The position numbers and the translations under genes were made by a program. DNA of 64,000 nt. Origin: Pseudomonas nicosulfuronedens (lineage in GTDB: Bacteria > Pseudomonadota > Gammaproteobacteria > Pseudomonadales > Pseudomonadaceae). The DNA is taken from positions 62,001 through 126,000 of the forward strand of contig NZ_SWDV01000022.1 in the NCBI RefSeq assembly GCF_005877905.1. Reading direction: 5' to 3'. Below the pieces are notes generated by a model. It made no database searches and was not told the origin of the DNA. It worked only from the letters and a program-made list of their open reading frames with translations. Positions 44,419 to 63,946 of the stretch are shown here, piece after piece; within the stretch, counting starts at the first letter, position 1, and each line of letters starts with the position of its first letter.

Positions 44419-44521
44419 TCTCCCACCTGGAGACGTGTCGCCGCGGAGCTTTGCCGAGCGACCTATACTGGCCCCTCGCGGCACTCGACGGCGACGCCTC
44501 CTCGAATGACACAGCCCATTG

Positions 44522-44583
44522 CGTAGGATGGGTGGAGCGCAGCGATACCCATCGATAAGTATCCGCGTGCGCCCATCCTGCGA
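44522..44583. repeat. Dispersed GTAGGATGGGTGGAGC-type palindromic element
   Basis: CGTAGGATGGGTGG at the left and CGCCCATCCTGCG at the right form an imperfect inverted repeat enclosing CGCAGCGATACCCATC. This element recurs in intergenic regions of many proteobacteria, including pseudomonads, and behaves like a small non-autonomous mobile repeat. Here it ends 22 bases before the aguA start. Confidence 0.65.
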
Positions 44584-44605
44584 AGCAACCCTCAAGGACC
44601 GCCCC

Positions 44606-45794: not shown

Positions 45795-47171
45795 TTACAG
45801 CAGCGGAATGCTGTAGCTGACGATCAGGCGGTTCTCGTCCTGGTCGCGCTGGGTGGCGGAGCCCGGCGTGGTCGACGCCGGCAGGCCACTGCGCAAGGAA
45901 GCGTTCTTCCAGGCGACGCCCAGGTTCTTCAGCGGACCGTCCTGGATGGTGTAACCCAGGCTGATATCGCGCTCCCACTCGGTCTTGTCACCGTAGGCCG
46001 TGTCGATGTTGTCGCCGCGCAGGTAGAGGGTCTGGAAGTTCAGGCCCGGCAGGCCCAGCGCCGCGAAGTCATAGCCATATCGAACCTGCCAGGTGCGCTC
46101 GCCGGCATGCTGGAACTTGCCGATCTGCACATCGGTACTCAGGTAGGAAGAAGCCCCGTCGCCGTCGTTGATGAACGGGAAGTCACTGTCGCCCTTGAGC
46201 ACCTGGTGCCCGGCACTGATGCTGTGGCCCTTGATGGTGTAGGTAAACAGGCCGCTGAACGCCTGGTTGTCGACCTTGCCGCGGGTCAGGCCGTTACCGT
46301 AGTAGCCGGTGGTGTAGTAGGACGGGTCATGGCTGCCGTTCTTGCCGTCACTGCTGCTGTGGAAGTAGCGCAGGTCGCTCTTGAGCACGCCCTCGCCAAT
46401 CTCCCAGTTGTGCTGGAGGCCGAGGAAGTGCTGTTTGTAGAAGTCCTTCAGGTTGCCGTAGTAGTACTGCAGCGTGGTGTCCTTGCCCAGCTTGTAGTCG
46501 GCACCACCGTAGTAGAACTTGTTGGTGTACTGGGCGTACTGCGACTTGCCGCCGGCGTTCGCCCCGGCGATCGACAGGCCCTGGTCGGAGTTGCTCGAGT
46601 TGCGCCCCTTCATGTGCTCCAGTTGGCCGGCGACGAAGGTCAGGTCCTTGAACTCATTGGAGGTGACCTGGCCACCACTGAAGGTCTGCGGCAGCAGGCG
46701 GCCGTCGTTGTACGTCACCACCGGCAGCTTGGGCTGCAACGTGCCATAGCGCAGCTCGGTCTGCGAGACCTTGGCCTTGCCGGTCAGCCCAAGGCTGGCG
46801 AAGTCGTCCACCGCGCGGCCATGGCTGTCCGTGGGGAAGACGATGCCACCCAGGCTGCTGCTGTCCGGGTTGTAGTGCTTGCCCTTGCCGCTGTCGAGCT
46901 TGACGCCCAGCAGACCCAGCGCATCGATACCGAAACCGACCGTACCCTGGGTGAAGCCGGACGCGTAGTTGAGCAGGAAGCCCTGCCCCCACTCCTCTTG
47001 TTTGCTCGGCGCCGCCGAGCCGTTGCGGTTGTCCTGGTTGATGTAGAAGTTGCGCAGGCCGAGGCTGGCCTTGCTGTCTTCGATGAAGCCATCGGCGAGT
47101 GCGACCTGGGCCATTCCGGCTGCGGCAATGGCCACGGCCAGGCTCGAATGCTTGAGATTGCGGTAATGCAT
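45795..47171 (-). CDS. OprD-family outer-membrane porin (OprE-like, copy 1)
   Basis: A 458-residue OprD-family porin. After a signal peptide (ending ALA) comes the family start GFIEDSKASLGLRNFYINQDNRNG, then the GQGFLLNYASGFTQGTVGFGIDALGLLGVKLDSGKG segment and regular beta-strands to the terminal NRLIVSYSIPLL. OprD-type porins give selective passage to small substrates such as amino acids and carboxylates. In PAO1 oprE lies next to aguA, so this is the positional match. GGGGAAAG before Met5 of the frame (47171) supports the start used. Very similar to the next gene. Confidence 0.9.
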   Translation of the reverse strand: MHYRNLKHSSLAVAIAAAGMAQVALADGFIEDSKASLGLRNFYINQDNRNGSAAPSKQEEWGQGFLLNYASGFTQGTVGFGIDALGLLGVKLDSGKGKHYNPDSSSLGGIVFPTDSHGRAVDDFASLGLTGKAKVSQTELRYGTLQPKLPVVTYNDGRLLPQTFSGGQVTSNEFKDLTFVAGQLEHMKGRNSSNSDQGLSIAGANAGGKSQYAQYTNKFYYGGADYKLGKDTTLQYYYGNLKDFYKQHFLGLQHNWEIGEGVLKSDLRYFHSSSDGKNGSHDPSYYTTGYYGNGLTRGKVDNQAFSGLFTYTIKGHSISAGHQVLKGDSDFPFINDGDGASSYLSTDVQIGKFQHAGERTWQVRYGYDFAALGLPGLNFQTLYLRGDNIDTAYGDKTEWERDISLGYTIQDGPLKNLGVAWKNASLRSGLPASTTPGSATQRDQDENRLIVSYSIPLL

Positions 47172-47645
47172 AGCTTTCCCCATGACAGGATCGTGAGCGC
47201 GTCATCGGGCTTCGGGCACGATGCGCCCGGCAGGGATGACGACAGTGTCGATCACGACGGCCATGGGGAGGAGTGAGAGAGACGAGCCAGACGGGGCGAT
47301 CTGCGCCGCCTTGTCACTGCAGCGCCGGCCGGGCGCTCGTTCAGCGAGGTACTCCCGAGCGACGCACGCTCCATAAACCCCTACCGGAAGGCCTGCTCGA
47401 TGCCTCTCCCGCCGGTCCGCGCGACCGGCGCCACGATAAGAGCAAGGCCGGCTGCCGCGCGGCGGATAGCCCCGTTACAGGAGGCCTGTTGCACAATCTT
47501 TGACCAGGCTCACGCTTGGATTTCCAGGCAGGCACGGACCACCTCGGAAATGAAGGAGAAGCCTCCGAACACTACCGGAAGAACACCGAATGCGGACAGG
47601 AAAATTCGGCCCCATTAGCGAGCGCACTACTCTCCCGCGCACCAC
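47172..47645 (-). other. Intergenic region upstream of porin copy 1
   Basis: About 470 non-coding bases between the two porin genes. It must hold the promoter and leader of the downstream porin. Open frames here have no coding signs. A GC-rich inverted repeat around CGGGCTTCGGGCACGATGCGCCCG (near 47210) may shape the leader. Otherwise nothing recognised. Confidence 0.4.
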
Positions 47646-47699: not shown

Positions 47700-49067
47700 T
47701 TACAGCAGCGGGATGGTGTAGCTGACGATCAGGCGGTTCTCGTCCTGGTCGCGCTGGGTCGGAGTACCCGGGTTGCCAGCGGAAGCGGCCGGCAGGCCAC
47801 TACGCAGCGCCGCGTTCTTCCAGGTGAAGCCCAGGCCCTTGAAGGTGCCGTCCGGGATCACGTAGGCCAGGGAAATGTCGCGCTCCCACTCGCTCTTGTC
47901 GCCCTGGGCGGTGTCGATGTTGTCGCCGCGCAGGTAGAGGGTCTGGAAGGTCAGGCCCGGCAGACCGGCCTGGGCGAAGTCGTAAGCGTAGCGAACCTGC
48001 CAGGTGCGCTCGCCAGCGCGCAGGAACTTGCCGATCTGCACGTCGGTGATCAGGTAGGCCGTGGCGCCGTCGCCGTTGTTGATGAACGGGAAGTCGCTGT
48101 TGCCGCTGAGCTGCTGGTAGCCGGCGCCGAAGCTGTGGCCGCTGACGGTGTAGGTGAACAGGCCGCTCCAGGCGCGGTTGTCGACTTCACCCTTGAGGGT
48201 GTTGCCGCCGTAGTAACCGCTGGTGTAGTAGCTCGAATCGTGGCCGTTCTTGCCATCGTCGCTGCTGTGGAAGTAGCGCAGGTCGCTCTTCAGCACGCCC
48301 GGGCCGATGGCCCAGTTGTGTTGCAGGCCGAGGAAGTGCTGTTTGTAGAAGTCCTGCAGGTTGCCGTAGTAGTACTGCAGCGTCAGGTCCTTGGTCAGCT
48401 TGTAGTCGGCGCCGCCGTAGTAGAACTTGTTGACGAACTTGCCGGTCTGGGCGTTGTTGGCGCCGGCGATCGACAGGCCTTCGTTGTTGCTCGAGTTACG
48501 GCCCTTGGCGTGCTCCAGCTGGCCGCCGAGCAGGGTCAGGTCCTTGAACTCGTTGGAGGTGACCTGGCCGCCCTCGAAGGTCTGCGGCAGCAGGCGACCG
48601 TCGTTGTAGGTCACCACCGGCAGCTTGGGCAGCAGGGTGCCGTATTGCAGCACGGTATTGGAAACCTTCACCTTGCCGGTGGCGCCCAGGTGGGCGAAGT
48701 CATCCACCGCGCGGCCATCGCCATCGGTGGGGAACACGGTGCCGGCATAGGCAGAACTTGTCGGGTTGTAGTGAGTGCCCTTGCCACTGTCCAGGCGCAC
48801 GCCCAGCAGGCCCAGGGCATCGACGCCGAAACCGACGGTGCCTTCGGTGAAGCCGGAGGTGTAGTTGAGCAGGAAGCCCTGCCCCCACTCTTCCTGCTTG
48901 CTCGGCTCGGCGGGGCCGTTGCGGTTGTCGGAGTTGATGTAGAAATTGCGCAGGGTCAGGTTGGCCTTGCTGTCTTCGATGAACCCACCGGCGACGGCGG
49001 ATTGAGCGAGGCCTGCGGCAGCGATGGCGAGCGCGAGGCTCGATTGCGTGAGAGTGCGGCGTTTCAT
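47700..49067 (-). CDS. OprD-family outer-membrane porin (OprE-like, copy 2)
   Basis: A 455-residue OprD-family porin, collinear with copy 1 over the full length: GGFIEDSKANLTLRNFYINSDNRNG, GQGFLLNYTSGFTEGTVGFG and the same closing NRLIVSYTIPLL. Differences cluster in short loop segments, as expected for duplicates with shifted substrate selectivity. Signal peptide residues 1-26. Own terminator and a long upstream region show it is a separate transcription unit from copy 1. Confidence 0.9.
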   Translation of the reverse strand: MKRRTLTQSSLALAIAAAGLAQSAVAGGFIEDSKANLTLRNFYINSDNRNGPAEPSKQEEWGQGFLLNYTSGFTEGTVGFGVDALGLLGVRLDSGKGTHYNPTSSAYAGTVFPTDGDGRAVDDFAHLGATGKVKVSNTVLQYGTLLPKLPVVTYNDGRLLPQTFEGGQVTSNEFKDLTLLGGQLEHAKGRNSSNNEGLSIAGANNAQTGKFVNKFYYGGADYKLTKDLTLQYYYGNLQDFYKQHFLGLQHNWAIGPGVLKSDLRYFHSSDDGKNGHDSSYYTSGYYGGNTLKGEVDNRAWSGLFTYTVSGHSFGAGYQQLSGNSDFPFINNGDGATAYLITDVQIGKFLRAGERTWQVRYAYDFAQAGLPGLTFQTLYLRGDNIDTAQGDKSEWERDISLAYVIPDGTFKGLGFTWKNAALRSGLPAASAGNPGTPTQRDQDENRLIVSYTIPLL

Positions 49068-49931: not shown

Positions 49932-51053
49932 TCAGTTGTTGCCAACCGCGGCGCTGGTGCCGATGAAGGCAGCCGACGGCAGCAGCTGACTGATGAAGCG
50001 GTTCCAGCGGGTGATGTTGGCCGGGCCGATGAACACGACATCCTGCGGCTGCATGGCAAACTCCTTGGCCAGGGCATAGGCGGTCGGACGCTTCGCTTCC
50101 AGGTGGAAGACCTGGGCCTGGAAGGCGCCCGGTGCAGTACCGGCGACCGACTCCGGGTTACCGCGGATCACGTAGACCGAGTCGCCATCGGAGGTTTCCG
50201 GGCTCAGGCCCCCGGCGTTGCCGAGTACTTCCAGCAGCGACAGGCCGGTGGTGCGGTAGGTAACCACCTGCGGACGCTCGACCTCACCCACCACGTAGAC
50301 TTTCTTGCGGTCGTTGTAGGGCAGGTGGATCTGGTCGCCGTTCTTCAGGTAGATGCCGGTCAGAGTCGAACCGGAGCGGTTCAGTGCGTCAACGTCGAGC
50401 ACATACTCGCGGCCATCACGCTTGAGCGTCAGCCCGGAAAGATCGGCTTCACCGGTGATCACACCAGCCTTGCTGACCGCCTGCACCAGGGTGGTCGGCG
50501 TATTGTTCAGCTCGACCTGCCCACCGTTCTGGAAAGCCCCGGAGAGCACCACGTGCTGGCTGGCATACCGCAGCACGGTGACATCCACCTGCGGGTCGAC
50601 AATACCCTTCTTCGCCAACTGGCTGGACAGGCGCTTGCGCAACTGCGCTGGAGTCTGCCCTTCGGCGCGTACGACACCGGCATAGGGGAAGAAGATATTG
50701 CCATCGGCACCGACCACGCGACCGTTGGCTTCCATCTGCTGGGTCGAGCCGGGACTGGTCAGTTCAGGGTGGTCCCAGACGGTGACCAGCAGCACGTCGC
50801 CGCCACCGATCAGGTAGTCCTCCTGCGGCGGGCGATAGTTCAGCAGCTCTGCGGGCACGCCGGGTTTGGCGGCGAAGTCGGCCTCCTGGCGTTGCAGCAC
50901 CTGGGGCGTGATGGGCACGAGGGTGATGTTCATCCCCTCCTTCTGGGCCTCGCGCTGGATATCGGAATCCGTCATGTGCTGACCGGGAGAGAACACGCAG
51001 CCTTGTAGCGCCAGACTGCCGACTACAAAGCTGAAAGCGAGCAGGTTTTTCAT
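49932..51053 (-). CDS. Outer-membrane polysaccharide export lipoprotein (Wza-like)
   Basis: A 373-residue lipoprotein: signal with lipobox LQGC (Cys about residue 18), a Poly_export domain (YLIGGGDVLLVTVWDHPELTSPG, about residues 80-102; FFPYAGVVRAEGQTPAQLRKRLS) and two SLBB-like domains (VVLSGAFQNGGQVELNNTP; VYVVGEVERPQVVTYR). Wza octamers form the outer-membrane pore for capsule or exopolysaccharide. The ATG at 51053 with AAGGA upstream starts the lipoprotein signal. Last gene of the operon, which is unusual, since wza often comes first. Confidence 0.92.
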   Translation of the reverse strand: MKNLLAFSFVVGSLALQGCVFSPGQHMTDSDIQREAQKEGMNITLVPITPQVLQRQEADFAAKPGVPAELLNYRPPQEDYLIGGGDVLLVTVWDHPELTSPGSTQQMEANGRVVGADGNIFFPYAGVVRAEGQTPAQLRKRLSSQLAKKGIVDPQVDVTVLRYASQHVVLSGAFQNGGQVELNNTPTTLVQAVSKAGVITGEADLSGLTLKRDGREYVLDVDALNRSGSTLTGIYLKNGDQIHLPYNDRKKVYVVGEVERPQVVTYRTTGLSLLEVLGNAGGLSPETSDGDSVYVIRGNPESVAGTAPGAFQAQVFHLEAKRPTAYALAKEFAMQPQDVVFIGPANITRWNRFISQLLPSAAFIGTSAAVGNN

Positions 51054-51084
51054 GGCAATCCTTCCTTGAAGCTTGTGTGGAAAC

Positions 51085-52485
51085 TCAATAGGCATTGCGG
51101 TGTACGAAACCCTTGAACAGGGTCAGCAAGACGATCTTCAGGTCCCACCAGACGGACCAGTTCTCGATGTAGTCCAGATCGAACTCGATGCGTTTCTGCA
51201 TCTTCTCCAGGGTGTCTGTTTCGCCACGCCAGCCGTTCACCTGGGCCCAGCCGGTAATGCCTGGCTTGACCTTGTGACGCAGCATGTAACGGCTGACCTG
51301 ACGCCGGTATTGCTCGTTGTGCGCCACGGCGTGGGGGCGTGGACCGACCACGGACATGTCGCCGAGCAAGACATTGAAGAACTGTGGCAACTCATCCAGC
51401 GAGGTGCGCCGCAGGAAGGCGCCCAGCGGGGTGATGCGGCAATCGTTGCGCGAGGCCTGGGTGACAGCGGCACCGTCCTCCATGACCGTCATGCTGCGGA
51501 ATTTCCAGACGCGGATGGGCCGGCCATCCATGCCGTAGCGGGTCTGGCGGAACAGCACCGGGCCGCGCGAAGTGAGCTTCACGGCCACGGCGATGAACAG
51601 CATGGGCACGGCGATCAGCAGCAGGATCAGCGAGGCCAGCACCACGTCCTCGATACGCTTGAGCACGGCGTTGGGGCCGTCCATGGGCGTGTCGAAGATG
51701 CTGATGGTGGCCAGCCCGTTGATGCTCTCGCTGCGCGCGTGCAGCAGGTCGAACATGAACAGGTCGGGGATCAGGTAGACCGACACCGTGGTGTCGGACA
51801 GCTCGCGGATCAGTTCGTTGAGCAGCGGCTCGCGGGACAGCGGCAGGGTCAGGTAGACCTTGTCGATCTGCCCCGAGCGCGCCGCCTCGATCAGCGCCAG
51901 GCGGTCGCCCTTTACCGGCACGCGCTCACCCAGTTCCATCTGCTGCGGGCGATCGTCATAGAAGCCGATCAGGCGCAGGCCCATCCAGGGCGCCGCGAGG
52001 ATGGTCTCGGCCAGTCGCGCACCCACTTCGCCGGTACCGTAGATGGCCACATTGCGGCTGTTGAAGCCGTGGCGGCGGGCGACGCGCAGCAGCATGCGGA
52101 TAGCCAGGCGGTAGCCGCACATGATCAGCAGCGCCGCGGCAAACCAGCCCAGGCGTCGGGGCTCTTCCAGTTCTACGTGGCGCAGGGAGATGTCCAGCAG
52201 CAGCACGGCGAAGAACGCCAGCGACCAGTACAGGGTGACGCTCAACGACTCACGCAGCAGCGACTCGCCACGCCAGGAGCCGTAGAGCTGGTTCAGCTCG
52301 CCGAGCCAGTGGAACAGCATCACGCAGAGCAGCACCGAGACCCAGATCTGTGCATCCAGCACGCCGTTGCCAGCGCTGAGCAGCACGACCCCGGTGAGCA
52401 CGATCACCAGGATGTCGCTCAGGCGGTGCGCCAGTGAGATCAGCGACTGGTGCGCGCGCAAGATTCCTTTCGTCTTGTTGGGCAT
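51085..52485 (-). CDS. wcaJ: Undecaprenyl-phosphate glucose phosphotransferase (WcaJ-like)
   Basis: A 466-residue polyisoprenyl-phosphate hexose-1-phosphate transferase that starts each repeat unit by putting a sugar phosphate, typically glucose-1-phosphate, on undecaprenyl phosphate. The N-terminus has four to five membrane helices (about residues 15-135), then a nucleotide-fold-like middle domain (NVAIYGTGEVGARLAETI) and the C-terminal catalytic domain SRGPVLFRQTRYGMDGRPIRVWKFRSM ... RRTSLDELPQFFNVLLGDMSVVGPRP. GAGG precedes the start. Next to wza at the end of the operon. Confidence 0.93.
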   Translation of the reverse strand: MPNKTKGILRAHQSLISLAHRLSDILVIVLTGVVLLSAGNGVLDAQIWVSVLLCVMLFHWLGELNQLYGSWRGESLLRESLSVTLYWSLAFFAVLLLDISLRHVELEEPRRLGWFAAALLIMCGYRLAIRMLLRVARRHGFNSRNVAIYGTGEVGARLAETILAAPWMGLRLIGFYDDRPQQMELGERVPVKGDRLALIEAARSGQIDKVYLTLPLSREPLLNELIRELSDTTVSVYLIPDLFMFDLLHARSESINGLATISIFDTPMDGPNAVLKRIEDVVLASLILLLIAVPMLFIAVAVKLTSRGPVLFRQTRYGMDGRPIRVWKFRSMTVMEDGAAVTQASRNDCRITPLGAFLRRTSLDELPQFFNVLLGDMSVVGPRPHAVAHNEQYRRQVSRYMLRHKVKPGITGWAQVNGWRGETDTLEKMQKRIEFDLDYIENWSVWWDLKIVLLTLFKGFVHRNAY

Positions 52486-52604: not shown

Positions 52605-53480
52605 TCACTGTCGCTTGTCCAGCAGCAGTTGCTGCAGGTAGCGGCCATAGCCGGTCTTGCTCAGGCGCTCGGCCTGGAGGGCCAGCAGGCTCTCGCTGAG
52701 CCAGCCCTGCTGGTAGGCGATTTCCTCCAGGCAGGCGACCTTCAGCCCCTGGCGCTCCTCGATGGTCTGCACGAAGTGGCCGGCTTCCATCAGCGACTCG
52801 TGGGTGCCGGTGTCCAGCCAGGCGAACCCACGACCGAGCAGGCTGACGCGCAGTTCGCCCAGTTCCAGGTAAAGGTTGTTGATATCGGTGATTTCCAGCT
52901 CGCCACGGGCCGAAGGGCGGATCTGACGAGCCATCTCGACGACGCGGTTGTCGTAGAAGTACAGGCCGGTGACGGCGTAGTTCGAGCGCGGTACGCGGGG
53001 TTTTTCCTCGATGGAAAGCACCCGCCCTGCGTCGTCGAACTCGACCACGCCGAAGCGCGCCGGGTCCGCTACCTGGTAGCCGAAGACGGTGGCGCCCTGG
53101 GTGCGCGCGGCGGCTTCGCGCAGGGTTTCGGTGAAGCCCTGGCCGTAGAAGATGTTGTCGCCCAGCACCAGGCACACCGAGTCGTCGCCGATGAATGGCG
53201 CGCCGATCAGGAAAGCCTGCGCCAGGCCATCGGGCGAGGGCTGCACGGCATACTGCAGGCGCACCCCGAACTGCTCGCCATCCCCCAGCAGGGCGCGGAA
53301 ATTCGGCAGGTCGGCAGGGGTGCAGATCAGCAGGATGTCGTCGATGCCGGCGAGCATCAGCACCGACAGCGGGTAATACACCATCGGCTTGTCGTAGATC
53401 GGCAGCAGTTGCTTGGATACGCCCAGGGTAATGGGATGCAGGCGCGTGCCGGAGCCACCGGCGAGGATGATGCCCTTCAT
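52605..53480 (-). CDS. rmlA: Glucose-1-phosphate thymidylyltransferase
   Basis: A 291-residue nucleotidyltransferase making dTDP-glucose. The signature [44 protein letters not shown] and [15 protein letters not shown] are plain. AAGGAGG nine bases upstream decides the ATG at 53480; the long upstream frame is a shadow of the glycosyltransferase. rmlB, rmlC and rmlD are not in the window, so the dTDP-sugar made (for example dTDP-rhamnose) depends on genes elsewhere. Its start overlaps the preceding gene's stop by four bases. Confidence 0.95.
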
Positions 53481-54595
53481 GATCTGCCTCCTTGCTTGGC
53501 GATCTGTTTGGCGTCGAAGCGCGCCGGATAGTCCGAGCGCTCGGTCAGAAAGGTGTCGATCAGGCTGGAAAGTCGCAGCGCTGAAATGTCCCAGGAGTAG
53601 CGCAGGACGTTCTCCTGCCCCAGGCGGCGCAAGTCGGCGCGCAGCTTGTGGTCGAGCAGCACCCGACGCAGGGCGGCCGCAATGCCGGGCGGATCGAGGG
53701 GGTCGAAGTACAGCACCGAGTTGCCCAGCACTTCGGGGATCGATGCACTGCTGGCGGCCACCACCGGGCAACCGCAGGCCTGGGCCTCCAGCGGCGGGAT
53801 GCCGAAGCCTTCGTACAGCGACGGGAAGGCGAAGACGGCGGCGTTGCGGTACTGCTCGATCAGTTGGTCGTCGTCCAGCCGCCCCAGCCAGCGCACCCGA
53901 TCACCCTGCCCGCTCTGCTGCAGTTGCGCATCGACGAAGCTGCGGTTGGCGGCGCCGACGATGCGCAGCTCCACGTCCAGCTCGCCGAGCAGACGGAACG
54001 CTTCGATCAGCCGGGAGAAGTTCTTGTGCGCCGCCGGCGAGGACACCGCCAGTACATAGGGGCGTTCGAGCTGCGTCGGTTCGAGGCCGGTACAGAACTC
54101 GGCGGACACCGCATTGGCGATCACGTGGATGCCTTTGGGGTCGACGCCATAGTGCGAGGCGATCTCCTCGCGGGAGAACTCGCTGACCGTGACCTGCGCC
54201 AGCGAACGGCGCAGCATCAGCGGGATCATCAGGCGGTACAGCGTGCGAAACTTCCAGGAGAAGCTTTCCGGGTGGCGCACGTAGGTGATGTCGTGGTGCG
54301 TGACGACCTGCTTTGAATAGGCCAGCGGTGCCGTGCTGCACAGCGAGACCAGCAGCGGCCGGCCGTGACGGGCCAGCCACAGCGGCAGGTCAACCTGTTC
54401 CCAGAGGTGCCCGCTGCGGTGGCCGATCTGTTCGACGCGGAGCTGGCTGGCGATTTCCGGGCGGAGGATTTCGCCGGGCGGTGCAACGAAGTGCAGGTCG
54501 CTGCGCAGCCGCGCCAGCGACAGCGAAATCTGCTCGGCGAAGCGCTGCACGCCGCTCACTTGCTGGGTCAGGAAACGCGCGTTGATCACGATCAT
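53477..54595 (-). CDS. Glycosyltransferase family 4
   Basis: A 372-residue GT-B glycosyltransferase. N-terminal [30 protein letters not shown] suggests the mannosyl/rhamnosyl-transferase-like GT4 group. The C-terminal donor site has the EX7E motif in [25 protein letters not shown], with [23 protein letters not shown] before it. Donor and acceptor unknown. Translationally coupled to rmlA (ATGA). Confidence 0.9.
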
Positions 54596-54615: not shown

Positions 54616-57231
54616 TCAGCGCAACGACAGTTGCGGGGCCGACGCGCTGCGCACCAGGGTGGGCGAGGCGTCGATGCGGATGCTGGCCTGGCAGTCGCCA
54701 CCCGCCTTGGGGCACTGCCAGGGCACCGGCCGGCCCTCGCGGCGGGCAATCCCTTCGACGGCGTCCAGACGCCAGAGGGTGTCGCTGCTGCCGGGCTTGC
54801 TGGTGATGTTCAGGGTCTGTTCGTGTCCCAGGGTCCAGGCCACCAGGATTTCCTCGCTGGCCTTGGCGAAGCGCAGCAGGTAGACGTTCGGGTCCTCATT
54901 CGGTACGCGGCCGACGAAGCGGTAGCGGCCGATGATGTCGGCAATGCTGGCCATCGCGTGGTAGGCCGGTTTCGGCTGGCCACCGGCGGTGAGCAGGCCG
55001 AAGTTGTGCTCCATGTCCGTGCGGTCGATGCCGTCGTCCACCAGGTCATACCACCAGGCACCCTTCACGTTCGGCAGGCTGCGCACCAGCACATAGGCGC
55101 GAGCCAGGTAGGCGGCCTGGCGTTCGCGGCTGATACCGCAATCGCCTTCGTGGGCCGGCCAGCTGAACTCGGTGAAGTACAGCGGGACCGGTTTGCCGGC
55201 GGCGTTTTCCAGCTTCTGGTTCACGCCCTGGAACCAGTTCAGCCAGGCTTCGGGAGTGGACATCTCGCCCTCGCAGTACACCGAGGGGTGCAGCGAAATA
55301 CCGTCGACGACATCCAGCGCGCCACCGGCGACGACGCGCTCGGCGAAGCCCTGGCGAATGCCCTTGAGGGTGACGGCTCCAGCGAGCACCTTGGCCTGCG
55401 GGTCTTCCTCGCGGATCACCTTGGCGGCCGCGCGCACCAGGGTCAGGTAGTCGTCGCTGAAGTCCTTGTCGGTGGCATTTTCCGAGTCCCATTCGTTCCA
55501 CACTTCGTAGTAGGCGACCTGCCCCTTGAAGCTGCGCACCACATAACGCACATAGCGCAGATAGCCCTCGCGGGCCACGTCGTCGCGCGGCTTGGCGTTT
55601 CCGTAGAACTGGTTCTCGTTGCCCAGGATCAGCAGTGTGCTGATACCCAGGCTGCGAGTGCTGCGCAGCTGCGCACGCCAGGCCGCATCGATGGACAGCA
55701 CGCCGCGCTCGCGTTCGACGCTGGACCAGTAGGCGTCGTCGCGGAACGACAGGATGCCGGCCTCGCGCGCCAGGCGATTGATGCCGTCGCGATTGCCCGC
55801 GCGGATGTTCTGGTGGGTACTGGCGCCGACGATGAATTCAGGCGCGCCGAGGTTTTCCACCGGCGCCTCGTTGGCCAGGGTGCGCGGTGATTGCAGCAGC
55901 CCGCCAATCAACAACGTGCAGGCCAGCAGGCTGAGCATGCCGCCCTGCAGGCGCAGGGTGCGCGGCGCCGGTTGCGGCGCGGCTTCGCCTGGCAAGCTCA
56001 GGGCGCGGCCGATGGCCAGGCCGAGGAACAGGCTGGGGATCGGCGACTCGAGCACGTCGCTGGTCCAGGCGATGAGCAGGATGCAGTAGGCGATGCCGAG
56101 CAGCGCGCGGGCTTCGCGGCCAGGCTGGCGCTGCAGGCGCATCAGCATCGGCACCGCCAGCAGGTAGAGGGCGACACCGGCCACGCCGAACAGGCACCAG
56201 AGGTAGAGCAGCGAATTGTCCGCCACCGCCAGCTGCTCGACGCCGAAGATCGGGAAGGCCGCGTAGGCGCTGCCGGTCATGCCCAGGCCGGCTCCGGTAT
56301 AGATCCAGCCGTTGTAGTCCATCACCTTGATCAGGTTCGGCCAGGTGTTGACCAGGCGATCCACCATCGACCCCATCAGGTTGTCGCCGGTGGCGCTGGC
56401 CAGGTACGGGTCGACCTGCGCGTACAGCCCATACAGCGGCAGCAGCAGCGCACCCAGCACCACTACCAGCGCGGCACACAGGAACAGCAGGCGCTGACGG
56501 GCGAAACCCATCACCAGCAGGGCGACGAAGAAGGCGCCGGCGGAGGACTTGTTGGTGGTCAGGACGATGCCCACCAGCGCCACCAGGTAGATCAACCCAC
56601 GTACCGGCAGCGCCAGGCGGAAAGAGCCCAGGTACAGGCTGAACACCGCCAGCATCATCGCCAGGCTCGAGGACATCCGCGAAAAGCCGGCGATGCGGTC
56701 CAGACCATAGGCGCTCCAGGAGCGGTTGCCGCTGATCTCGACGCCGCCCATGGAGTAGGTGTAACCCTTCCACGGCACGTTGATGGTGAGATCCAGGGCA
56801 ATGCCGAGCAGCGAAGCGAGCAGGCAGAAGAAGATGATCCAGCCCATCGCCTTGCGATGCATTTCCAGGTAGGGGCCGCAGAGCAGGCCGAACAGCAGCG
56901 GCGCGTAGATGAACACCGAGAAGAGGCCGCTCTTGAACTCGGCCCCATGCAGCCGGCCGAGCAGTAGCGAAGCTGCTGCGAGGATCAGCAGCAACCAGAG
57001 GCCACGCTGCTGCGGGCGGGTGAAAAGCTCCCAGCCCACCGCGACGATGCAGGCCACCTTGGGCAGGTAAACGATGGCCGACAGACCCGCCTGGTCGGTG
57101 TAGAAGCGCAGCGCACCGTTGAAGGTCTCCACCAGCAGCAAGGCCACCAGCACCCCGAGCGCCAGCAACGAGCGGTCGAAGGTCACGCGGCGGTCGACCT
57201 CAAAGCGTGGATACGGGGATTGCAGTTCCAT
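54616..57231 (-). CDS. Fusion protein: Wzy/O-antigen-ligase-like polymerase + clan GH-A glycoside hydrolase
   Basis: An 871-residue two-part protein. Residues about 20-450 carry some ten to twelve membrane helices; the central YTGAGLGMTGSAYAAFP and DNSLLYLWCLFGVAG loops resemble Wzy polymerases and WaaL-type ligases. After the last helix (about 431-447) a soluble domain (about 465-785) has the clan GH-A TIM-barrel pattern: acid/base Glu in YYEVWNEWD (Glu580), HPSVY, and nucleophile Glu in LYFTEFSWP (Glu688), like PslG/GH39 hydrolases. A beta-rich tail ends the protein. Topology puts the hydrolase in the periplasm beside its own polymerase. The ATG at 57231 has GGAG and overlaps the upstream gene by 32 bases. 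Both halves are in one uninterrupted frame. Confidence 0.85.
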   Translation of the reverse strand: MELQSPYPRFEVDRRVTFDRSLLALGVLVALLLVETFNGALRFYTDQAGLSAIVYLPKVACIVAVGWELFTRPQQRGLWLLLILAAASLLLGRLHGAEFKSGLFSVFIYAPLLFGLLCGPYLEMHRKAMGWIIFFCLLASLLGIALDLTINVPWKGYTYSMGGVEISGNRSWSAYGLDRIAGFSRMSSSLAMMLAVFSLYLGSFRLALPVRGLIYLVALVGIVLTTNKSSAGAFFVALLVMGFARQRLLFLCAALVVVLGALLLPLYGLYAQVDPYLASATGDNLMGSMVDRLVNTWPNLIKVMDYNGWIYTGAGLGMTGSAYAAFPIFGVEQLAVADNSLLYLWCLFGVAGVALYLLAVPMLMRLQRQPGREARALLGIAYCILLIAWTSDVLESPIPSLFLGLAIGRALSLPGEAAPQPAPRTLRLQGGMLSLLACTLLIGGLLQSPRTLANEAPVENLGAPEFIVGASTHQNIRAGNRDGINRLAREAGILSFRDDAYWSSVERERGVLSIDAAWRAQLRSTRSLGISTLLILGNENQFYGNAKPRDDVAREGYLRYVRYVVRSFKGQVAYYEVWNEWDSENATDKDFSDDYLTLVRAAAKVIREEDPQAKVLAGAVTLKGIRQGFAERVVAGGALDVVDGISLHPSVYCEGEMSTPEAWLNWFQGVNQKLENAAGKPVPLYFTEFSWPAHEGDCGISRERQAAYLARAYVLVRSLPNVKGAWWYDLVDDGIDRTDMEHNFGLLTAGGQPKPAYHAMASIADIIGRYRFVGRVPNEDPNVYLLRFAKASEEILVAWTLGHEQTLNITSKPGSSDTLWRLDAVEGIARREGRPVPWQCPKAGGDCQASIRIDASPTLVRSASAPQLSLR

Positions 57232-58432
57232 GCTGGACTCCGCGGGTAAGCAGGGTGTGGCGCAGGATGGCTTCGTATTCGTCAAGCATCCGTTCCACGC
57301 TGAGCATTGGTGCCACGACCTCACGGGCGCGCGCGGCCAGGCGCTGGCGCAGCGCCGGCTCACGCACCAGGCGTTCGATCGCGTCGCCCAGCGAGTCGCT
57401 GCGCTCGGGCGAGCAGAGCAGGCCGTTGATTTCGTCCAGGACGATTTCCGTCAGGCCGCCCATGCGTGAGGCGATCACCGGCAGGTGATGGGCGCAGGCT
57501 TCCAGCGCCACCAGCCCGAAGGATTCCGGTGACAGGCTGGGCACCACGGCGACGTCGATTTCACCGAAGAATTCGGCCGCCTTGCGGTAGCCGACGAAGT
57601 GCACGCGCTGGGGATCGGCAAGGGACTTCAGCTGGTTCACGTAGGTGCTGTCGCCCCGTCCGGCGATCAGCAGCGAGGCATCGTCGCCGCGTGCCTGGAA
57701 CTGCTCGATCAGCCACTCCACGCCCTTGTTCGGGGTCAGCGCGCCGATGAAGCCGAAACGCAGCGGACGTCGCCCGCTTGCCGGCGGCGCGACGGGCACC
57801 TCCGCCATCGGCGAGCCGTTGTAGACCACATGGGTCTGGCTGCCGGCGAAGTACCCGGCATCGAGCAGCGCATTGAGCTGGTAGCGACTGACGCCGACCA
57901 CCGCATCGATTTCGCTCGAAGCCGATGCGTGGGAGCGCCGCAGCAGCGCACAGGATGCGCACTGCTGCTCACAGTGGCGACCCTTGTGGAAGCGCACGCC
58001 GCGCGGGCAGGTCAGGTACTGGTCATGAAGTATCTGTACGAGCGGCAGACCGGCGTCGCGGATTGCGTCCCAGGCGGAGATCGACCAGCCCGACAGGTTA
58101 TGGCAGACCACCACGTCCGGCTCGACCTCTTCCAGCACCTTCGCCAGCACGCTGCGCATGCTGCGGTTGTAGCGGTCCAGCCCGTGCCAGGCGAGGCGCT
58201 GCAGCGGGCCGTGGCGCTTCTCGTCGAACGGCCAGTAGAGATTGCGCAGGCCGGCGCGCAGCACCGCTACACCGTTGAACGTCTCGCGCTGCAGACCCGC
58301 ATCCGGCCCGGTGCAGAGCACCTGCACGTCATGCCCACGCCCGCGCAGGCCCTCGGCCATGAGCTGCAGCATGACCTCCGCCCCGCCACCGATGTGCGGG
58401 GCGTAGAGGGTGTTGAGCAGCAGCACTCTCAT
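57200..58432 (-). CDS. Glycosyltransferase family 4
   Basis: A 410-residue GT-B enzyme with N-terminal MRVLLLNTLYAPHIGGGAEVMLQLMAEGLRGRGHDV, a cysteine-rich insert (CPRGVRFHKGRHCEQQCASCALL, about residues 140-162) known in a subset of GT4 proteins, and the donor motif LSPESFGLVALEACAHHLPVIAS. The inserted cysteines may bind zinc. Start ATG overlaps the stop of the upstream GT2 gene (ATGA); its own stop lies within the next gene. Confidence 0.9.
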   Translation of the reverse strand: MRVLLLNTLYAPHIGGGAEVMLQLMAEGLRGRGHDVQVLCTGPDAGLQRETFNGVAVLRAGLRNLYWPFDEKRHGPLQRLAWHGLDRYNRSMRSVLAKVLEEVEPDVVVCHNLSGWSISAWDAIRDAGLPLVQILHDQYLTCPRGVRFHKGRHCEQQCASCALLRRSHASASSEIDAVVGVSRYQLNALLDAGYFAGSQTHVVYNGSPMAEVPVAPPASGRRPLRFGFIGALTPNKGVEWLIEQFQARGDDASLLIAGRGDSTYVNQLKSLADPQRVHFVGYRKAAEFFGEIDVAVVPSLSPESFGLVALEACAHHLPVIASRMGGLTEIVLDEINGLLCSPERSDSLGDAIERLVREPALRQRLAARAREVVAPMLSVERMLDEYEAILRHTLLTRGVQHGTAIPVSTL

Positions 58433-59427
58433 AGCGGGTAGGCCCGGTTCATGCCGAGTGCGCCGGCTTCGCCATCGCGGATCGCCTGCAGCAGCAGGGC
58501 CAGGCGGCTCTCGCGCTGGTGGCGGCGGGCGAAGAAGTGCAGCAGGCGGATGAACACCCAGCGGTTGAAGCGGTACATCAGCGGCGAGGTGACCCACAGG
58601 TTCTTGTCGAACCAGGCCTGGTTGCGCGCGGCGTAGTAGGCGCGCAGGTCGGAGCTGCCGAGCAGGTAGGTCTCGTAGATGTTGGAGGTGCGCTCCTTGA
58701 TGTTCCAGGAGTGCTCCAGGTCGTCCAGGCCAGCCTCGGGCACCAGGTAGAGATGCCCGCCGAGGGCGCCGATACGGAAGGTGTACTCGGTGTCGTCGGC
58801 GTAGAGCACCAGATCGCGGCGCGGCAGGCCGATGCGCCGGAACAGGTCGGCATGCCCGAGCAGGCCGCCGTAGTAGGCGAATGGCAGCTCCAGCAATGGC
58901 TGCGCGCGGCGCGGCTTAGGCTTGCCCCAGGGCGTGCGGCGCCAGAGCTTGTAGGGCAGTTGGCGGACATGGAAGCCGAAGTAGCTGGAGCGTGGCGGCG
59001 TGATGAAGCGGGTCGGCACGCCGGAGGCGACATCGGCCTGGTGGGTCGGGCGAAAGCCAAGTACGGCGGTATTGTCGGCACCATGGCGCAGTGCGCAGTC
59101 GATCAGACGTTGCTTGAGCAGAGGGAAGGAGCCCGGCGTCGGCGCGTTGTCGTCATCCATCAGCCAGATGAAGTCGCAGCCGGTCTTCAGTGCAGCCTCG
59201 ATGCCCACGGCGTAGCCATTGGCCGAACCGGTATTGCTGTCCAGCTCGATCACCTGCACGCGGTTGGGCCAGAGCATGAACAGCTGGTCCAGCTCCGCCA
59301 CCGAGGCATTGCTGACGACAATGGCGCGGGTGATGTCCTTCTCGCGGAAGGCACGAGCCAGAAGCTCTTCCAGATATTCCAGGCGATCGCCATAGGTCAG
59401 CGTCACCAACACGGTCGATCCATTCAT
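58429..59427 (-). CDS. Glycosyltransferase family 2
   Basis: A 332-residue GT-A enzyme. TVLVTLTYGDRLEYLEELLARAF opens the nucleotide-binding domain, with the DXD-type motif WLMDDDNAPTPG at about residue 90. The W-x-x-DDD form resembles GlfT/rhamnosyl-type GT2 proteins. AGGAG nine bases before the ATG at 59427 fixes the start; the frame continues 196 codons upstream only as a shadow of the antiterminator gene. Acceptor and donor unknown. Confidence 0.9.
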   Translation of the reverse strand: MNGSTVLVTLTYGDRLEYLEELLARAFREKDITRAIVVSNASVAELDQLFMLWPNRVQVIELDSNTGSANGYAVGIEAALKTGCDFIWLMDDDNAPTPGSFPLLKQRLIDCALRHGADNTAVLGFRPTHQADVASGVPTRFITPPRSSYFGFHVRQLPYKLWRRTPWGKPKPRRAQPLLELPFAYYGGLLGHADLFRRIGLPRRDLVLYADDTEYTFRIGALGGHLYLVPEAGLDDLEHSWNIKERTSNIYETYLLGSSDLRAYYAARNQAWFDKNLWVTSPLMYRFNRWVFIRLLHFFARRHQRESRLALLLQAIRDGEAGALGMNRAYPL

Positions 59428-59471: not shown

Positions 59472-59999
59472 TCAGGCGCGCCAGCCGTCGTTGCCGCCCA
59501 CCGCCGAGAGCTGGCTGAGCGGGACCCGGATGCGTTGTTCGCGTTGCAGCAGGTTGAGCAGGATCAGGGCGCGCTCGGTGCCGTCGTCGCAGAGGAAGAT
59601 GGCCTCGACCTCGCATTCGCCTGCGCACTTCAGGCGCACCACCTGGCCTTCGTGGAAGCTGCTGGCAGGCCGCTCGGGCATGCTCGCCAGGCGCTGGCGG
59701 ATGCCTTCCACCAGGTCGTCGGCCACTGCCAGCGGCTGCGCGCCGAAGCTGACGATGCGCGCCACACCACGGGTGGAGCGGATCGGGAACCAGTTGTCGT
59801 GCTGCTGATCGAGGCGGATGAACAGGTAGCCGGGGAACAGCGGCTGGGTCCGGCTGCCCTGCTTCACCACCGGGCGATAGCAGGAAAAACCCTGGCGACC
59901 AAGGTTCTCCTCGGCGCGCAGTTCCTGGTGTGGTTTGGTCTGGATCAGGTACCAGCGGTACTGCGCGACATCCAGATCCACGCTGACGATGGAATTCAT
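59472..59999 (-). CDS. Transcription antiterminator of the NusG/RfaH family
   Basis: A 175-residue RfaH-type protein with an NGN domain (RWYLIQTKPHQELRAEENLGRQGFSCYRPVV ... LFPGYLFIRLD ... RGVARIVSFGAQPLAV) and a C-terminal KOW-like region (FHEGQVVRLKCAGECEVEAIFLCDDGTERALILLNLL). Such specialised paralogues help RNA polymerase through long, poorly translated surface-polysaccharide operons. Encoded within the operon it presumably controls. Four-base overlap with the wbqC-like gene upstream. An ops-like recruitment site would be expected near the operon start, right of the window. Confidence 0.92.
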   Translation of the reverse strand: MNSIVSVDLDVAQYRWYLIQTKPHQELRAEENLGRQGFSCYRPVVKQGSRTQPLFPGYLFIRLDQQHDNWFPIRSTRGVARIVSFGAQPLAVADDLVEGIRQRLASMPERPASSFHEGQVVRLKCAGECEVEAIFLCDDGTERALILLNLLQREQRIRVPLSQLSAVGGNDGWRA

Positions 60000-60745
60000 G
60001 ACTCGTACTCCCCAAGGATGTCGGACGAGGGAGCGGGCCGCTCCAGGGTGTAGCGGCCCAGCAACCGCTGCATCTCGTCCGGCGGGTTGAACATCAGCAC
60101 GTCGATGATCGACAGGCTGGGGACGAAATCAGGGCTGAACTGCGGGTAGCTCAACTCGTCCATGCGCAGGAATTGCAGCTCCAGGCCGTGGGCCTGGAAC
60201 ACCTCGGGCGAGTACAGGTGACGTCCGCCCTCCGGGTTGAGGTAGACGTCGCCACCGCTCTGTTTCACCGCTTCGATCAGGCGCTGGTCGCGGCCGATAT
60301 CGTCGGCCAGGTCCAGCTCGGAAACCCGTGCCATGGGTGTGTCGATGCCCATGTAATGGCAGATGCGGCGGATCGAGTGTTCGGCGAAGTGCGACAGGTT
60401 GCGCTCGGGGTGTTCGAGGATTTCCTCCAGCAGCGGCATCACCTGCGGGTAGCACGGTGCACGGTGGTAGGCATGGCGGATGGTGTGCAGCAGGCGCTGG
60501 TTGCTCAGGCGCATCTGCTCGCTCAGCCTTCTCTCATTGATCGCCTGGGTCTGCGAGCCCTGTTCCAGCGGGAAGCTGAACTGCCAGATCTTCCCGCCGA
60601 CCAGCAGGCGATTGCGATTGATCCAGCCGCGCCGGGTGTACTGCAGGCTGTCGCCGAGAATGAACAGGCTGCTCGCGGCGATCAGCTGGAAGTACCCCAG
60701 GTAGGGGAACAGGTACGGCTGCATGAGGCTGACGATATGGACCAT
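59996..60745 (-). CDS. WbqC-family protein
   Basis: A 249-residue protein of the WbqC family (PF08889). The N-terminal IVSLMQPYLFPYLGYFQLIAASSLFILGDSLQYTRRGWINRNRL and the SIRRICHYMGIDTPMARVSEL and DVYLNPEGGRHLYSPEVF segments are typical. Members occur in O-antigen and exopolysaccharide clusters, perhaps as amino- or acyl-modifying enzymes; the reaction is unproven. It lies between the Wzc gene and the antiterminator in the same operon. Confidence 0.9.
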   Translation of the reverse strand: MVHIVSLMQPYLFPYLGYFQLIAASSLFILGDSLQYTRRGWINRNRLLVGGKIWQFSFPLEQGSQTQAINERRLSEQMRLSNQRLLHTIRHAYHRAPCYPQVMPLLEEILEHPERNLSHFAEHSIRRICHYMGIDTPMARVSELDLADDIGRDQRLIEAVKQSGGDVYLNPEGGRHLYSPEVFQAHGLELQFLRMDELSYPQFSPDFVPSLSIIDVLMFNPPDEMQRLLGRYTLERPAPSSDILGEYES

Positions 60746-60771: not shown

Positions 60772-62985
60772 TCAGTCCTTGGCGTCGTAGCGGTAGGCGT
60801 AGGCGCCGTAGTCGTATGCCGCGGTCGAGGCCTTGCGTTTCACACCGTTGAGGATCGCGCCCTGCAGGTGGATGCCGCTCTGCCCCAGGCGCCGCCGTGC
60901 GGTGTCGATCTCGCTCGCCGGGCTCTGGCCGAAGCGCGTCACCAGCAGGCAGATGCCGCACAGCCGGCCGACCAGGGCGGCGTCGGTCACCGCCAGCACC
61001 GGCGGGGTGTCGACTATCACCAGGTCGTACATCGACGAGGCATCGCGCAGCAGCTGGGCAAAGTTCTCGTGCATCAGCAGCTCGGAGGGGTTGGGCGCGG
61101 CGAAGCCGCAGGAGATGAAGTCCAGCTCCGGCACCTCGGTGGGCAGGATCACTTCGCTCAGCGGACGGTGCGAACTCAGCGCGTCGGACAGGCCGTGGCG
61201 CGGGGTCAGGCCGAACACCCGGTGCAGGTAGCCCTTGCGCATGTCGGCGTCGATCAGCAGGGTGCGCAGGCCAGATTGCGCGACGATGGCCGCGAGGTTG
61301 CTGGAGACGAACGACTTGCCGGCGCCCGGCGCCGGGCTGGTGAGCATCACCACGTTGTTGCGCGCTTCGAGCAGGGCGAAATGCAGGTTGGTGCGCAGGC
61401 TGCGGATCGCCTCGTTGGCCAGGTCACCGGGGGCCGACGCGGCCAGCAGCTTGGGTGTATGGCCGAGGATGTCACCCTTGCGCTCCTTCTCCAGACGCTC
61501 CTGCTGCCGCGAGTAGGGGATCGCGGCGAGGACCGAGAGGCCGAGCTGTTCGATCGCCTCGGGGTTCTCCACGCCACGGTAGAAGGCCTGGCGCAGGAAC
61601 AGGATCGCGAGGGCGACGCAGAAGCCGAGCAGGGTGGCGAGCAGCACGATGACCTTGCGCATCGGCTTGGCCGGCTGCTCGACGTTGGCCTGGGCGGTGT
61701 CGATCACCCGCACGTTGCCGATGGTGCCGGCGCGGATGATGTCCTGCTCCTGGGCCTTGTTCAGCAGGTTGGTGTAGGTCTGACGGGTGACCTGCATGTC
61801 ACGGGACAGGCGCAGCAGTTCCTGCTGGGTAGCCGGCAGGGTCTGGATGCGTTTCTGCAGTTGTGCCTTGCGGTCTTCCAGACTGCCCATCTGCTTGAGC
61901 AGCGCCTGGTAGGTCGGATGCGTCGGGGTGTACAGGCGGTCGTACTCGGCGCGCTTGAGCTTGAGCTCGGAAAGCTGGTTGTCGATGCCCACCACCTGGT
62001 CCAGCACACCACGGGTCTCGACGCTGATGTCGGCGGATTTGGCAGTGGTCTGGTAGGCGTTGTAAGCGGCCTCGGCCTTCTCCAGGTCCAGGCGTACCAC
62101 CGGCAGTTGCGAGCGCAGGAACTGCAGGCGCTGGGACGCTTCGGCGGAACTGCGCTCGACGTTCTGCAGCACGTAGAGGTGGCTGATCTTGTCGAGGATG
62201 CGGTCGGCCTGCAGCGGGTTCGGATCTTCCAGGGTCATGTAGATGATCCCCGAGTCCTTGCCGGCCTCGGCCACCTTGAGCAGCTTCTGGTAGTTCAGGG
62301 TCGTGGTGAGCAGGCGGTTCTTCGCCACGATGAACTCGGTGCCGGGGCGCGCCACCAGCTCATCCACCTCGATGCTGAAGCCCTTCTCCATCACGGTTTT
62401 CTTCAGCTCGCCGCGCAGGATCAGCTGGTCGTCGGCGTTGAGCAGGTGATAGGCGTCGCCACCGTCGGCCACCAGGGTCAGCGGTTCGCCCAGGTACTCC
62501 TCCGGTACGTCGAGCGAGAACACCTTGATCTGCTCGCCGCCCCAGCCGTAGGCACCCATGCCCAGCCAGGGCGCAGCCAGCGTCTGCCCGGCCTCGGGAT
62601 GGTAGCGGCGTGCCAGGTAGTCACCGATCAGCGGCAGGCGCTTGGGCTTGGCGATGATGTCCAGCTTCAGCAGCTCGACCGCCTTGCCGAGTACCGCGCG
62701 CGATTTCAGCAGTTCGATTTCGGTGGAGGCGATCGACACCGAGTCGGGGCGATTGATCACCTCCGGCGTGCCGTTCAGGCCGTTCTTCTTCTGCTCGATC
62801 TGGATCATCGCGCCGGAAACGTAGATCGGCGTGGCGACCACTGCATAGAAGAGCCCGAGCACCGCGAACAGGCCGGTGACGGCGAGGATCATCTTCTTGT
62901 GATCGAACAGCAGGCGCAGCAGGCCGGCAACGTCGATGCGGGTGTCCTGGAGCGTTTCCAGGGACGAGCGGGGCATGACACTCAT
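60772..62985 (-). CDS. Polysaccharide co-polymerase and bacterial tyrosine kinase (Wzc-like)
   Basis: A 737-residue PCP-2a protein. TM1 about 33-52, a Wzz-type periplasmic domain with long coiled coil about 275-435, TM2 about 445-464, then a BY-kinase domain: Walker A in PAPGAGKSF (551-559), Walker A' LLIDADMRKGY, Walker B LVIVDTPP (655-662). The tail has five tyrosines (724, 726, 729, 731, 733) as autophosphorylation sites. It sets chain length and couples the polymerase to Wza. Second gene from the left edge of the operon as transcribed in this window. Confidence 0.95.
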   Translation of the reverse strand: MSVMPRSSLETLQDTRIDVAGLLRLLFDHKKMILAVTGLFAVLGLFYAVVATPIYVSGAMIQIEQKKNGLNGTPEVINRPDSVSIASTEIELLKSRAVLGKAVELLKLDIIAKPKRLPLIGDYLARRYHPEAGQTLAAPWLGMGAYGWGGEQIKVFSLDVPEEYLGEPLTLVADGGDAYHLLNADDQLILRGELKKTVMEKGFSIEVDELVARPGTEFIVAKNRLLTTTLNYQKLLKVAEAGKDSGIIYMTLEDPNPLQADRILDKISHLYVLQNVERSSAEASQRLQFLRSQLPVVRLDLEKAEAAYNAYQTTAKSADISVETRGVLDQVVGIDNQLSELKLKRAEYDRLYTPTHPTYQALLKQMGSLEDRKAQLQKRIQTLPATQQELLRLSRDMQVTRQTYTNLLNKAQEQDIIRAGTIGNVRVIDTAQANVEQPAKPMRKVIVLLATLLGFCVALAILFLRQAFYRGVENPEAIEQLGLSVLAAIPYSRQQERLEKERKGDILGHTPKLLAASAPGDLANEAIRSLRTNLHFALLEARNNVVMLTSPAPGAGKSFVSSNLAAIVAQSGLRTLLIDADMRKGYLHRVFGLTPRHGLSDALSSHRPLSEVILPTEVPELDFISCGFAAPNPSELLMHENFAQLLRDASSMYDLVIVDTPPVLAVTDAALVGRLCGICLLVTRFGQSPASEIDTARRRLGQSGIHLQGAILNGVKRKASTAAYDYGAYAYRYDAKD

Positions 62986-63016: not shown

Positions 63017-63946
63017 TCAGCGCGCCTGAATCGGGTTCAGCCGCTTGAGCAGGTTGGCGCCGTGGTTGCCGATCAGCAGCAGGAAGGCCTGCACCTTGCG
63101 CATGGGCGAGACGGCGGCCATGGACATCCGGCAGACCTGCATCAGGAAGTACTCGTTGAGCTCCTGGCTTCCCACACGCTGGTAGTAGCGCGACAGGCAG
63201 TAGTAGGTGTGCAGGGTCATCTGCTGCTGCACGCGATCGGCCTGCATGGAGAAGATCCCACCCTGGTGCACGCGGTAGGCAGCCGGGCGGATTTCCTCGA
63301 TGAACTTGCCCTTGCCGAAGGCCCCCAGCAGCGACCACCAGCACAGGTCGACCATGCGCGTGGTGCGAAGCTCCTCGGGCATCTCGGTCAGGACGTTGCG
63401 GAAACAGGTGGTCAACGTCGAGATCGGCCGCGCCTGCTGCAGCTCCAGACGGCTGGCGTCGCGGCGGTACTTGCCGGTGAGTTGCCGGGGCTTGATCACG
63501 CCGTCTTCGTTGTAGGTGTAGGCGTCGTGGTAGGTGATCACGTAGTCCGGGTTCTGCTCCAGGAAGTCGACCTGGATCTGCAGCTTGCGCGGGTCGGTCC
63601 AGTAATCGTCGCCCTCGCAGTAGGCGATGTAGCGCCCGCGCGCCTTGCGGAACACCGGCAGGCCGTGGGAGACGCCCTTGGAGTACTGGTTTTCCTTGTG
63701 GAAGATCGGCTTGATGATGTGCGGGTAGCGCGCGGCGTAGTCGGCGATCAGCTCACTGGTGCCGTCGTTGGAGGCGTCGTCGTTGACCAGCACTTCGAAG
63801 CGGAAGTCGGTGACCTGCTCGAGGAAGCTGTCCAGCGTGCGGCCGATGTAGTTCACCTGGTTGTAGGCCAGGCAGACGATGCTCAGGAGGGGCTTCGGGT
63901 CTTCCGGCCAGTTGGAGAGGATCTGCAGCTCGGAGCGGATATCCAT
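63017..63946 (-). CDS. Glycosyltransferase family 2
   Basis: A 309-residue GT-A enzyme. LLSIVCLAYNQVNYIGRTLDSFLEQVTDFRFEVLVNDDASNDGTSELI opens the domain and YIAYCEGDDYWTDPRKLQIQVDFL carries the DXD-like GDDYW motif common in glycosyltransferases of O-antigen and exopolysaccharide clusters. Start at 63946. 31 bases separate it from the Wzc gene. Donor sugar unknown. Confidence 0.92.
   Translation of the reverse strand: MDIRSELQILSNWPEDPKPLLSIVCLAYNQVNYIGRTLDSFLEQVTDFRFEVLVNDDASNDGTSELIADYAARYPHIIKPIFHKENQYSKGVSHGLPVFRKARGRYIAYCEGDDYWTDPRKLQIQVDFLEQNPDYVITYHDAYTYNEDGVIKPRQLTGKYRRDASRLELQQARPISTLTTCFRNVLTEMPEELRTTRMVDLCWWSLLGAFGKGKFIEEIRPAAYRVHQGGIFSMQADRVQQQMTLHTYYCLSRYYQRVGSQELNEYFLMQVCRMSMAAVSPMRKVQAFLLLIGNHGANLLKRLNPIQAR

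Follow-up and report, generated by a model that had tools for sequence, protein, structure and literature searches.

According to two reports, the key residues of PslG, a GH39-like endoglycosidase of the Psl operon of Pseudomonas aeruginosa, are E165 and E276 (PMC9075953), its activity and inner-membrane association matter for normal amounts of Psl (PMC6813494), and the passage of PslG into the periplasm is proposed to be controlled or delayed by other Psl proteins (PMC6813494, PMC9075953). The PslG authors describe the reason why exopolysaccharide operons carry a hydrolase as elusive (PMC9075953). PslG is a separate protein. Here we describe a gene, wzy-gh39, in which a GH39 domain with the same catalytic glutamates forms the C-terminal half of a predicted polymerase gene product, in another operon. 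The gene lies in a 64,000-nucleotide stretch of the Pseudomonas nicosulfuronedens genome (contig NZ_SWDV01000022.1, positions 62,001 to 126,000; hereafter, the window).

The initial annotation of the window had described a single unbroken frame of 871 residues, giving no strand; this frame is present, on the minus strand, and contains no internal stop (Table 1). Full-length, stop-free versions were found in 16 of the 25 genomes of the genus, as grouped in the genome collection used (74-100% identity, own genome included), among them P. nitroreducens TX1, P. nitroreducens 381H and P. pseudonitroreducens, so that the fusion goes beyond chance and a local sequencing error is excluded. One further genus genome has only a weak match (residues 545-768, 28% identity), and eight have no match. 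Seven loci (L020-L026) were left out of the fused-genome count and of the trees discussed below, as duplicates of genomes already counted.

We consider it probable, judging from the sequence, that the gene encodes a composite precursor, cut at an internal signal peptide into a polymerase and a periplasmic hydrolase of a Wzx/Wzy-type exopolysaccharide operon. In this reading, the Wzy-type polymerase would consist of the first 12 helices, and the GH39 domain would be exported through the inner membrane by a Sec-like signal peptide that the protein has kept internally (about residues 424-453). A cut by signal peptidase I, most likely after Ala453, would yield an inner-membrane polymerase of about 49 kDa and a periplasmic PslG-like hydrolase of about 46 kDa. 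The two parts would be made 1:1, with the hydrolase delivered or released at the polymerase, and the hydrolase may then act on chains in the ways that have been proposed for PslG, by trimming, releasing or clearing them. Its role at the polymerase is suggested by analogy with PslG, and we infer both the substrate and the effect on chains.

The C-terminal half is supported as a GH39, PslG-like hydrolase with predicted retaining activity. The Pfam GH39 profile (PF01229) matches residues 533-799 (E 1.4e-9, 37.8 bits against a cut-off of 26), and in a fold search with a model of the full-length protein, the hydrolase fold resembles solved GH39 and other GH-A enzymes, bearing out the clan GH-A module proposed in the initial annotation. 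The catalytic glutamates had also been numbered correctly: Glu580 and Glu688 both align with glutamates of the solved PslG chains, and in a 46-row alignment these positions hold E in 29/29 and 30/31, respectively, of the rows with a letter.

Across the family, some match was detected in 162 of 398 genomes. Among the family matches listed (to about 319 bits), those that are full-length and stop-free come from the same 16 genomes, and at least 18 further full-length matches hold a stop. At 37 loci, including L059 in another gammaproteobacterial family and L103 in Burkholderia cenocepacia, the two halves are separate neighbouring frames. In other Pseudomonadaceae, these adjacent wzy and GH39 genes form a homologous pair in the same order as in the fusion, but as two genes, the hydrolase having its own start codon and N-terminal signal peptide. 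Stop and start codons overlap in some split pairs (L057, L092, L097), and others are in the same frame with one stop between; the count of same-frame pairs (18/37) was not used as evidence because 14 loci came as single long matches and four were chosen from that list. In-frame TGA read-through in the 18 stop-holding relatives was rejected, given that, past the stop, the hydrolase frame opens with an ATG and encodes a Sec-like signal peptide. In trees of 60 hydrolase and 55 polymerase halves, both quick and with some long branches, outgroups among them, the 16 fused rows lie on one side of a branch with support of 100 and require one change. Because the fused rows share one side of this branch, with split outgroups, the trees fit a single fusion event in the ancestry of the group, from adjacent split genes.

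The fused junction runs in the order RLQG, hydrophobic core, Pro449, small-X-Ala, a variable stretch and the hydrolase core FIVG. We read it as a basic n-region, a hydrophobic core and a small-X-Ala site, with cutting predicted to occur after Ala453 and before Asn454 (positions 55873/55872). The hydrophobic core matches in place the Sec-like signal peptides at the N-termini of the separate hydrolases (for example, MTKRSTPLNALLLGGLLGLAPFASA/QT in L032). A signal-peptide rule made for this analysis, which is crude, uncalibrated and not a trained predictor, was passed by 34 of the 37 split hydrolases (L085, L095 and L103 failed) and by 16/16 fused junctions.

Stronger evidence than this rule comes from the substitutions in the linker, counted on a tree built without the linker. 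Per column, the linker (406-463) averages 1.89 changes, the membrane module (16-405) 0.86 and the hydrolase (464-800) 0.71. The 18 columns of residues 447-464 carry 66 changes (mean 3.7), the top value among 854 segments of equal length, the best segment away from the junction having a mean of 2.2. Within 447-464, only Pro449 and Ala453 show zero changes (each invariant in 16/16); residue 451 changed four times, always within A, S, T and G, and residues 450, 452 and 454 changed 7, 5 and 6 times. Signal peptidase I sites have a helix breaker at -5, a small residue at -3 and Ala at -1, and this substitution pattern is that of such a site. Because the junction retains both a Sec-like signal and this conserved signal-peptidase-I-like site, the mature hydrolase may be released, like the hydrolases of the split relatives. 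A conserved-site rule run over columns 20-871 returned three positions, 231, 233 and 453, and is therefore not, by itself, unique to the junction.

The N-terminal half, a putative polymerase, is identified less firmly than the hydrolase half. Scanned alone, it matches the Wzy_C profile over positions 3-149 of 149 at 22.2 bits, and in a whole-genome profile search at 25.9 bits, both under the curated cut-off of 31.7; seven of the 21 members of the alignment of this half match Wzy_C at E 0.01 or better. A PDB sequence profile search with the Wzy half yielded no relative, the best hit being an unrelated peptide (E 0.32), and the best 50 fold matches of the full-length model, which cover the hydrolase, include no Wzy or ligase structure. 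Wzy polymerases and ligases have about 10-14 membrane helices with large periplasmic loops, and the model, in which we read 12 helices and loops at 150-186 and 272-339, fits this description. The Wzy/ligase-like module of the initial annotation is supported as a Wzy-like module with a weak profile match. If the N-terminus is inside, as we assume, the 12 helices that precede the signal would put the hydrolase in the periplasm. This placement, already proposed in the initial annotation, is supported by the helices of the model and by the charge bias of the loops: computed without the hydrolase domain, the density of lysine and arginine is 0.138 per residue (8/58) in loops assigned to the cytoplasm vs 0.048 (7/147) in periplasmic ones.

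Several observations weigh against a polymerase-hydrolase precursor cut at the junction. Besides its match under the cut-off (22.2-25.9 vs 31.7 bits), Wzy_C is not listed for the full-length protein in a Pfam scan with E up to 1. Plain hydropathy gives nine segments before the signal, missing 187-201, 228-242 and 397-411, and the topology used here fails if the number of segments is odd. The signal-peptide rule, whose crudeness itself counts here, selects 451-453 as the best site in only five of the 16 fused junctions; in the other 11, it prefers a different small-X-small triplet. The codon of Ala453 is GCC in 16/16, so limited divergence may add to the invariance of this residue. Finally, AlphaFold2 draws residues 432-453 as one helix, with low confidence, which makes an uncut anchor possible.

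The fusion could be neutral, the stop having been lost by chance and the protein being cut as before, with co-translation as the only consequence. This account, which is compatible with the composite precursor and to which we assign an appreciable but minor share of belief, is favoured by the split relatives, which already lie back to back, some with overlapping stop and start codons and some sharing one frame that a single stop interrupts. Against it, the fusion has been kept in 16/16 genus genomes with the locus, though a neutral fixed change would also stay. A permanent tether, the reading of the initial annotation, in which residues 432-453 are a 13th membrane helix and the hydrolase stays covalently on the polymerase and trims or releases chains during synthesis, seems to us doubtful. 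It would agree with the retention of an uninterrupted frame in 16/25 genomes and with the low-confidence AlphaFold2 helix, but under it the cut site should decay, yet in the stretch that changes fastest Pro449 and Ala453 alone are invariant, and position -3 has always kept a small residue; moreover, the hydrophobic core is, in our judgement, of signal-peptide length.

Cutting might also be incomplete or under regulation: protein left uncut would trim or release chains at the polymerase during synthesis, and the hydrolase freed by cutting would clear periplasmic polymer. We hold this to be unlikely; if true, one gene would set the ratio of tethered to free hydrolase. In P. aeruginosa, tethered and free pools of PslG are proposed to depend on other Psl proteins holding PslG at the membrane.

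Internal re-initiation, with a second start near residue 432 yielding a separate secreted hydrolase alongside or instead of the fusion, is highly improbable: an ATG is present at residue 432 in nine of the 16 fused sequences, and in the window GGGCGG lies just upstream of it, but the other fused sequences have TTG, CTG or GTG in its place, so that this start lacks conservation, and its product would be without the basic n-region, the invariant R427 being upstream of residue 432. An assembly or annotation artefact joining two genes, raised as a possibility in the initial annotation, is refuted by the survey, which found open frames and diverged sequence in 16 genomes, and no point in its favour was found.

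We return to the composite precursor as the favoured reading. The coupling of synthesis and cutting that had been proposed from the fused frame is real at the genetic level; physical tethering and control of chain length we only infer.

The surrounding gene row is a full Wzx/Wzy-type exopolysaccharide set, with Wzx-, Wzc-, Wza- and phosphoglycosyl transferase-type neighbours (Table 1), so the exopolysaccharide context first assigned to the fusion gene holds. The start of the fusion gene is overlapped by the 3' end of a GT4-type gene, and past the window the row continues with a Wzx-type flippase (Polysacc_synt), a DegT-type aminotransferase and a protein without a Pfam match. No second Wzy-type match was found among the operon proteins scanned, the fusion gene being the only polymerase candidate. 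Judged from gene content on inspection, the operon does not look like Psl. The locus of the genus member with only a PslG-like weak match (G011, L110) shares only weak GH and GT4 matches.

Table 1. Features of the wzy-gh39 fusion gene and neighbouring operon genes (positions in the window)
Feature	Positions	Strand	Details
wzy-gh39 fusion gene	54616..57231	minus	ATG at 57231, stop at 54616 (stop included), 871 aa
Wzy/O-antigen-ligase-like membrane module	55999..57231	minus	residues 1-411, 12 helices read from model
Cytoplasmic linker and basic n-region	55939..55998	minus	residues 412-431; RLQG 427-430 invariant in 16 fused sequences
Hydrophobic core of internal signal peptide	55894..55938	minus	residues 432-446
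Candidate signal peptidase I site	55870..55887	minus	residues 449-454
GH39 (clan GH-A) hydrolase with C-terminal beta domain	54643..55836	minus	residues 466-863
Glu580, predicted acid/base (WNE)	55492..55494	minus	aligned with PslG WNE glutamate
Glu688, predicted nucleophile (FTEFSW)	55168..55170	minus	aligned with PslG TE glutamate
Wza-like outer-membrane export protein	49932..51095	minus	Pfam Poly_export, SLBB, Wza_C
Initiating phosphoglycosyl transferase, presumably WbaP-like	51085..52485	minus	Pfam Bac_transf, CoA_binding_3
Nucleotidyl transferase, which we take to be RmlA-like	52605..53480	minus	Pfam NTP_transferase
GT4-type glycosyltransferase	53477..54595	minus	Pfam Glycos_transf_1, Glyco_transf_4
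GT4-type glycosyltransferase	57200..58432	minus	Pfam Glycos_transf_1, Glyco_transf_4
GT2-type glycosyltransferase	58429..59427	minus	Pfam Glycos_transf_2
NusG/RfaH-like antiterminator	59472..59999	minus	Pfam NusG; RfaH-like judging from its place
WbqC-like protein	59996..60745	minus	Pfam WbqC
Wzc-like tyrosine autokinase/co-polymerase	60772..62985	minus	Pfam WZC_N, GNVR, Wzz, AAA_31
GT2-type glycosyltransferase	63017..63946	minus	Pfam scan

Two split pairs sit in a largely syntenic operon. L027 matches 12 of the 15 operon proteins in the order of the window, with wzy and GH39 split and adjacent; WbqC, the nucleotidyl transferase and a 469-residue protein have no match there, and DegT is truncated by the end of the stretch compared. 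L108 (a g15 genome) matches 11 of 15, ten in the order of the window and a GT2 displaced downstream, with wzy and GH39 again split and adjacent; within 19.5 kb, the nucleotidyl transferase, phosphoglycosyl transferase, Wza and the 469-residue protein are unmatched. The NusG/RfaH-like gene inside the operon is also found in L108 and L027. The 469-residue protein, for which Pfam gives no match at E 0.001, is encoded at the upstream end of the gene row, beyond the window (L105, 17135-18544, minus strand), and its counterpart in G015 is 98.5% identical. Beside the operon lie tandem OprD-family porin genes (45795-47183 and 47700-49067, minus strand) and, on the other strand, genes for a TetR-type regulator (43637-44332) and a PAD_porph deiminase (44519-45715).

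The wzy-GH39 pair is common to otherwise different gene rows and may travel as a unit because in L111 (a g14 genome) it is the only part of the operon matched in 19.5 kb. In the stretches compared of two g6 genomes (G029, L058, 4.2 kb; G093, L102 and L109, 8.5 and 19.5 kb), a close relative of the Wzy half is present but no hydrolase half was detected. Away from the wzy pair, five genomes (G187, G221, G249, G300 and G387) encode a further relative of the hydrolase half that stands alone (residues about 464-868). Three long frames (L044, L063, L069), among those that surveys of the class and the phylum turned up, were rejected as other polymerase-hydrolase fusions, having no Wzy match and at most one membrane-like segment. 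Rarer fusions are possible because these surveys drew 369 and 398 genomes, with metagenomes outside the survey.

In the literature searched, which left most subscription journals outside, we found no polymerase-GH39 or other polymerase-hydrolase fusion, nothing on internal signal peptides combined with signal peptidase, no text on the FbcH precursor described below, and, for P. nitroreducens exopolysaccharide clusters, nothing on this locus. The accessible parts of PMC7112194, PMC11340318 and PMC10920833 report no polymerase-hydrolase fusion. The GH39 enzyme of Bacteroides cellulosilyticus (5jvk) is a solved chain without a membrane module, unlike the fusion. BcsZC of the Zymomonas cellulose operons also joins a periplasmic polysaccharide hydrolase to a part of the export machine, but the hydrolase is on the outer-membrane pore rather than on the polymerase, and the families differ (PMC7112194). 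Similarly, the bimodular O-antigen ligase WadA (GT121-GT25) combines a Wzy/ligase-type membrane glycosyltransferase with an appended globular enzyme, but the latter is a glycosyltransferase, not a hydrolase, and no internal signal peptide is mentioned in the accessible part of the report (PMC10920833). Fusions of this general sort are thus already known, whereas the polymerase-GH39 combination was not found in the literature searched.

That polymerase and hydrolase belong together is the message of this natural fusion. The same pair exists both split and fused, which makes a comparison readily available, and the fusion offers a clear way to test the link between the building of chains and their trimming. 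With its internal signal peptide, the protein would be a bacterial precursor of two enzymes, which ordinary signal peptidase would separate, if they are separated at all. In FbcH of Bradyrhizobium, the cytochrome b/c1 precursor, a polytopic membrane protein and a periplasmic protein likewise arise from one chain that is split at an internal signal peptide, but FbcH belongs to a respiratory complex and its families are unrelated to those of the wzy-gh39 fusion.
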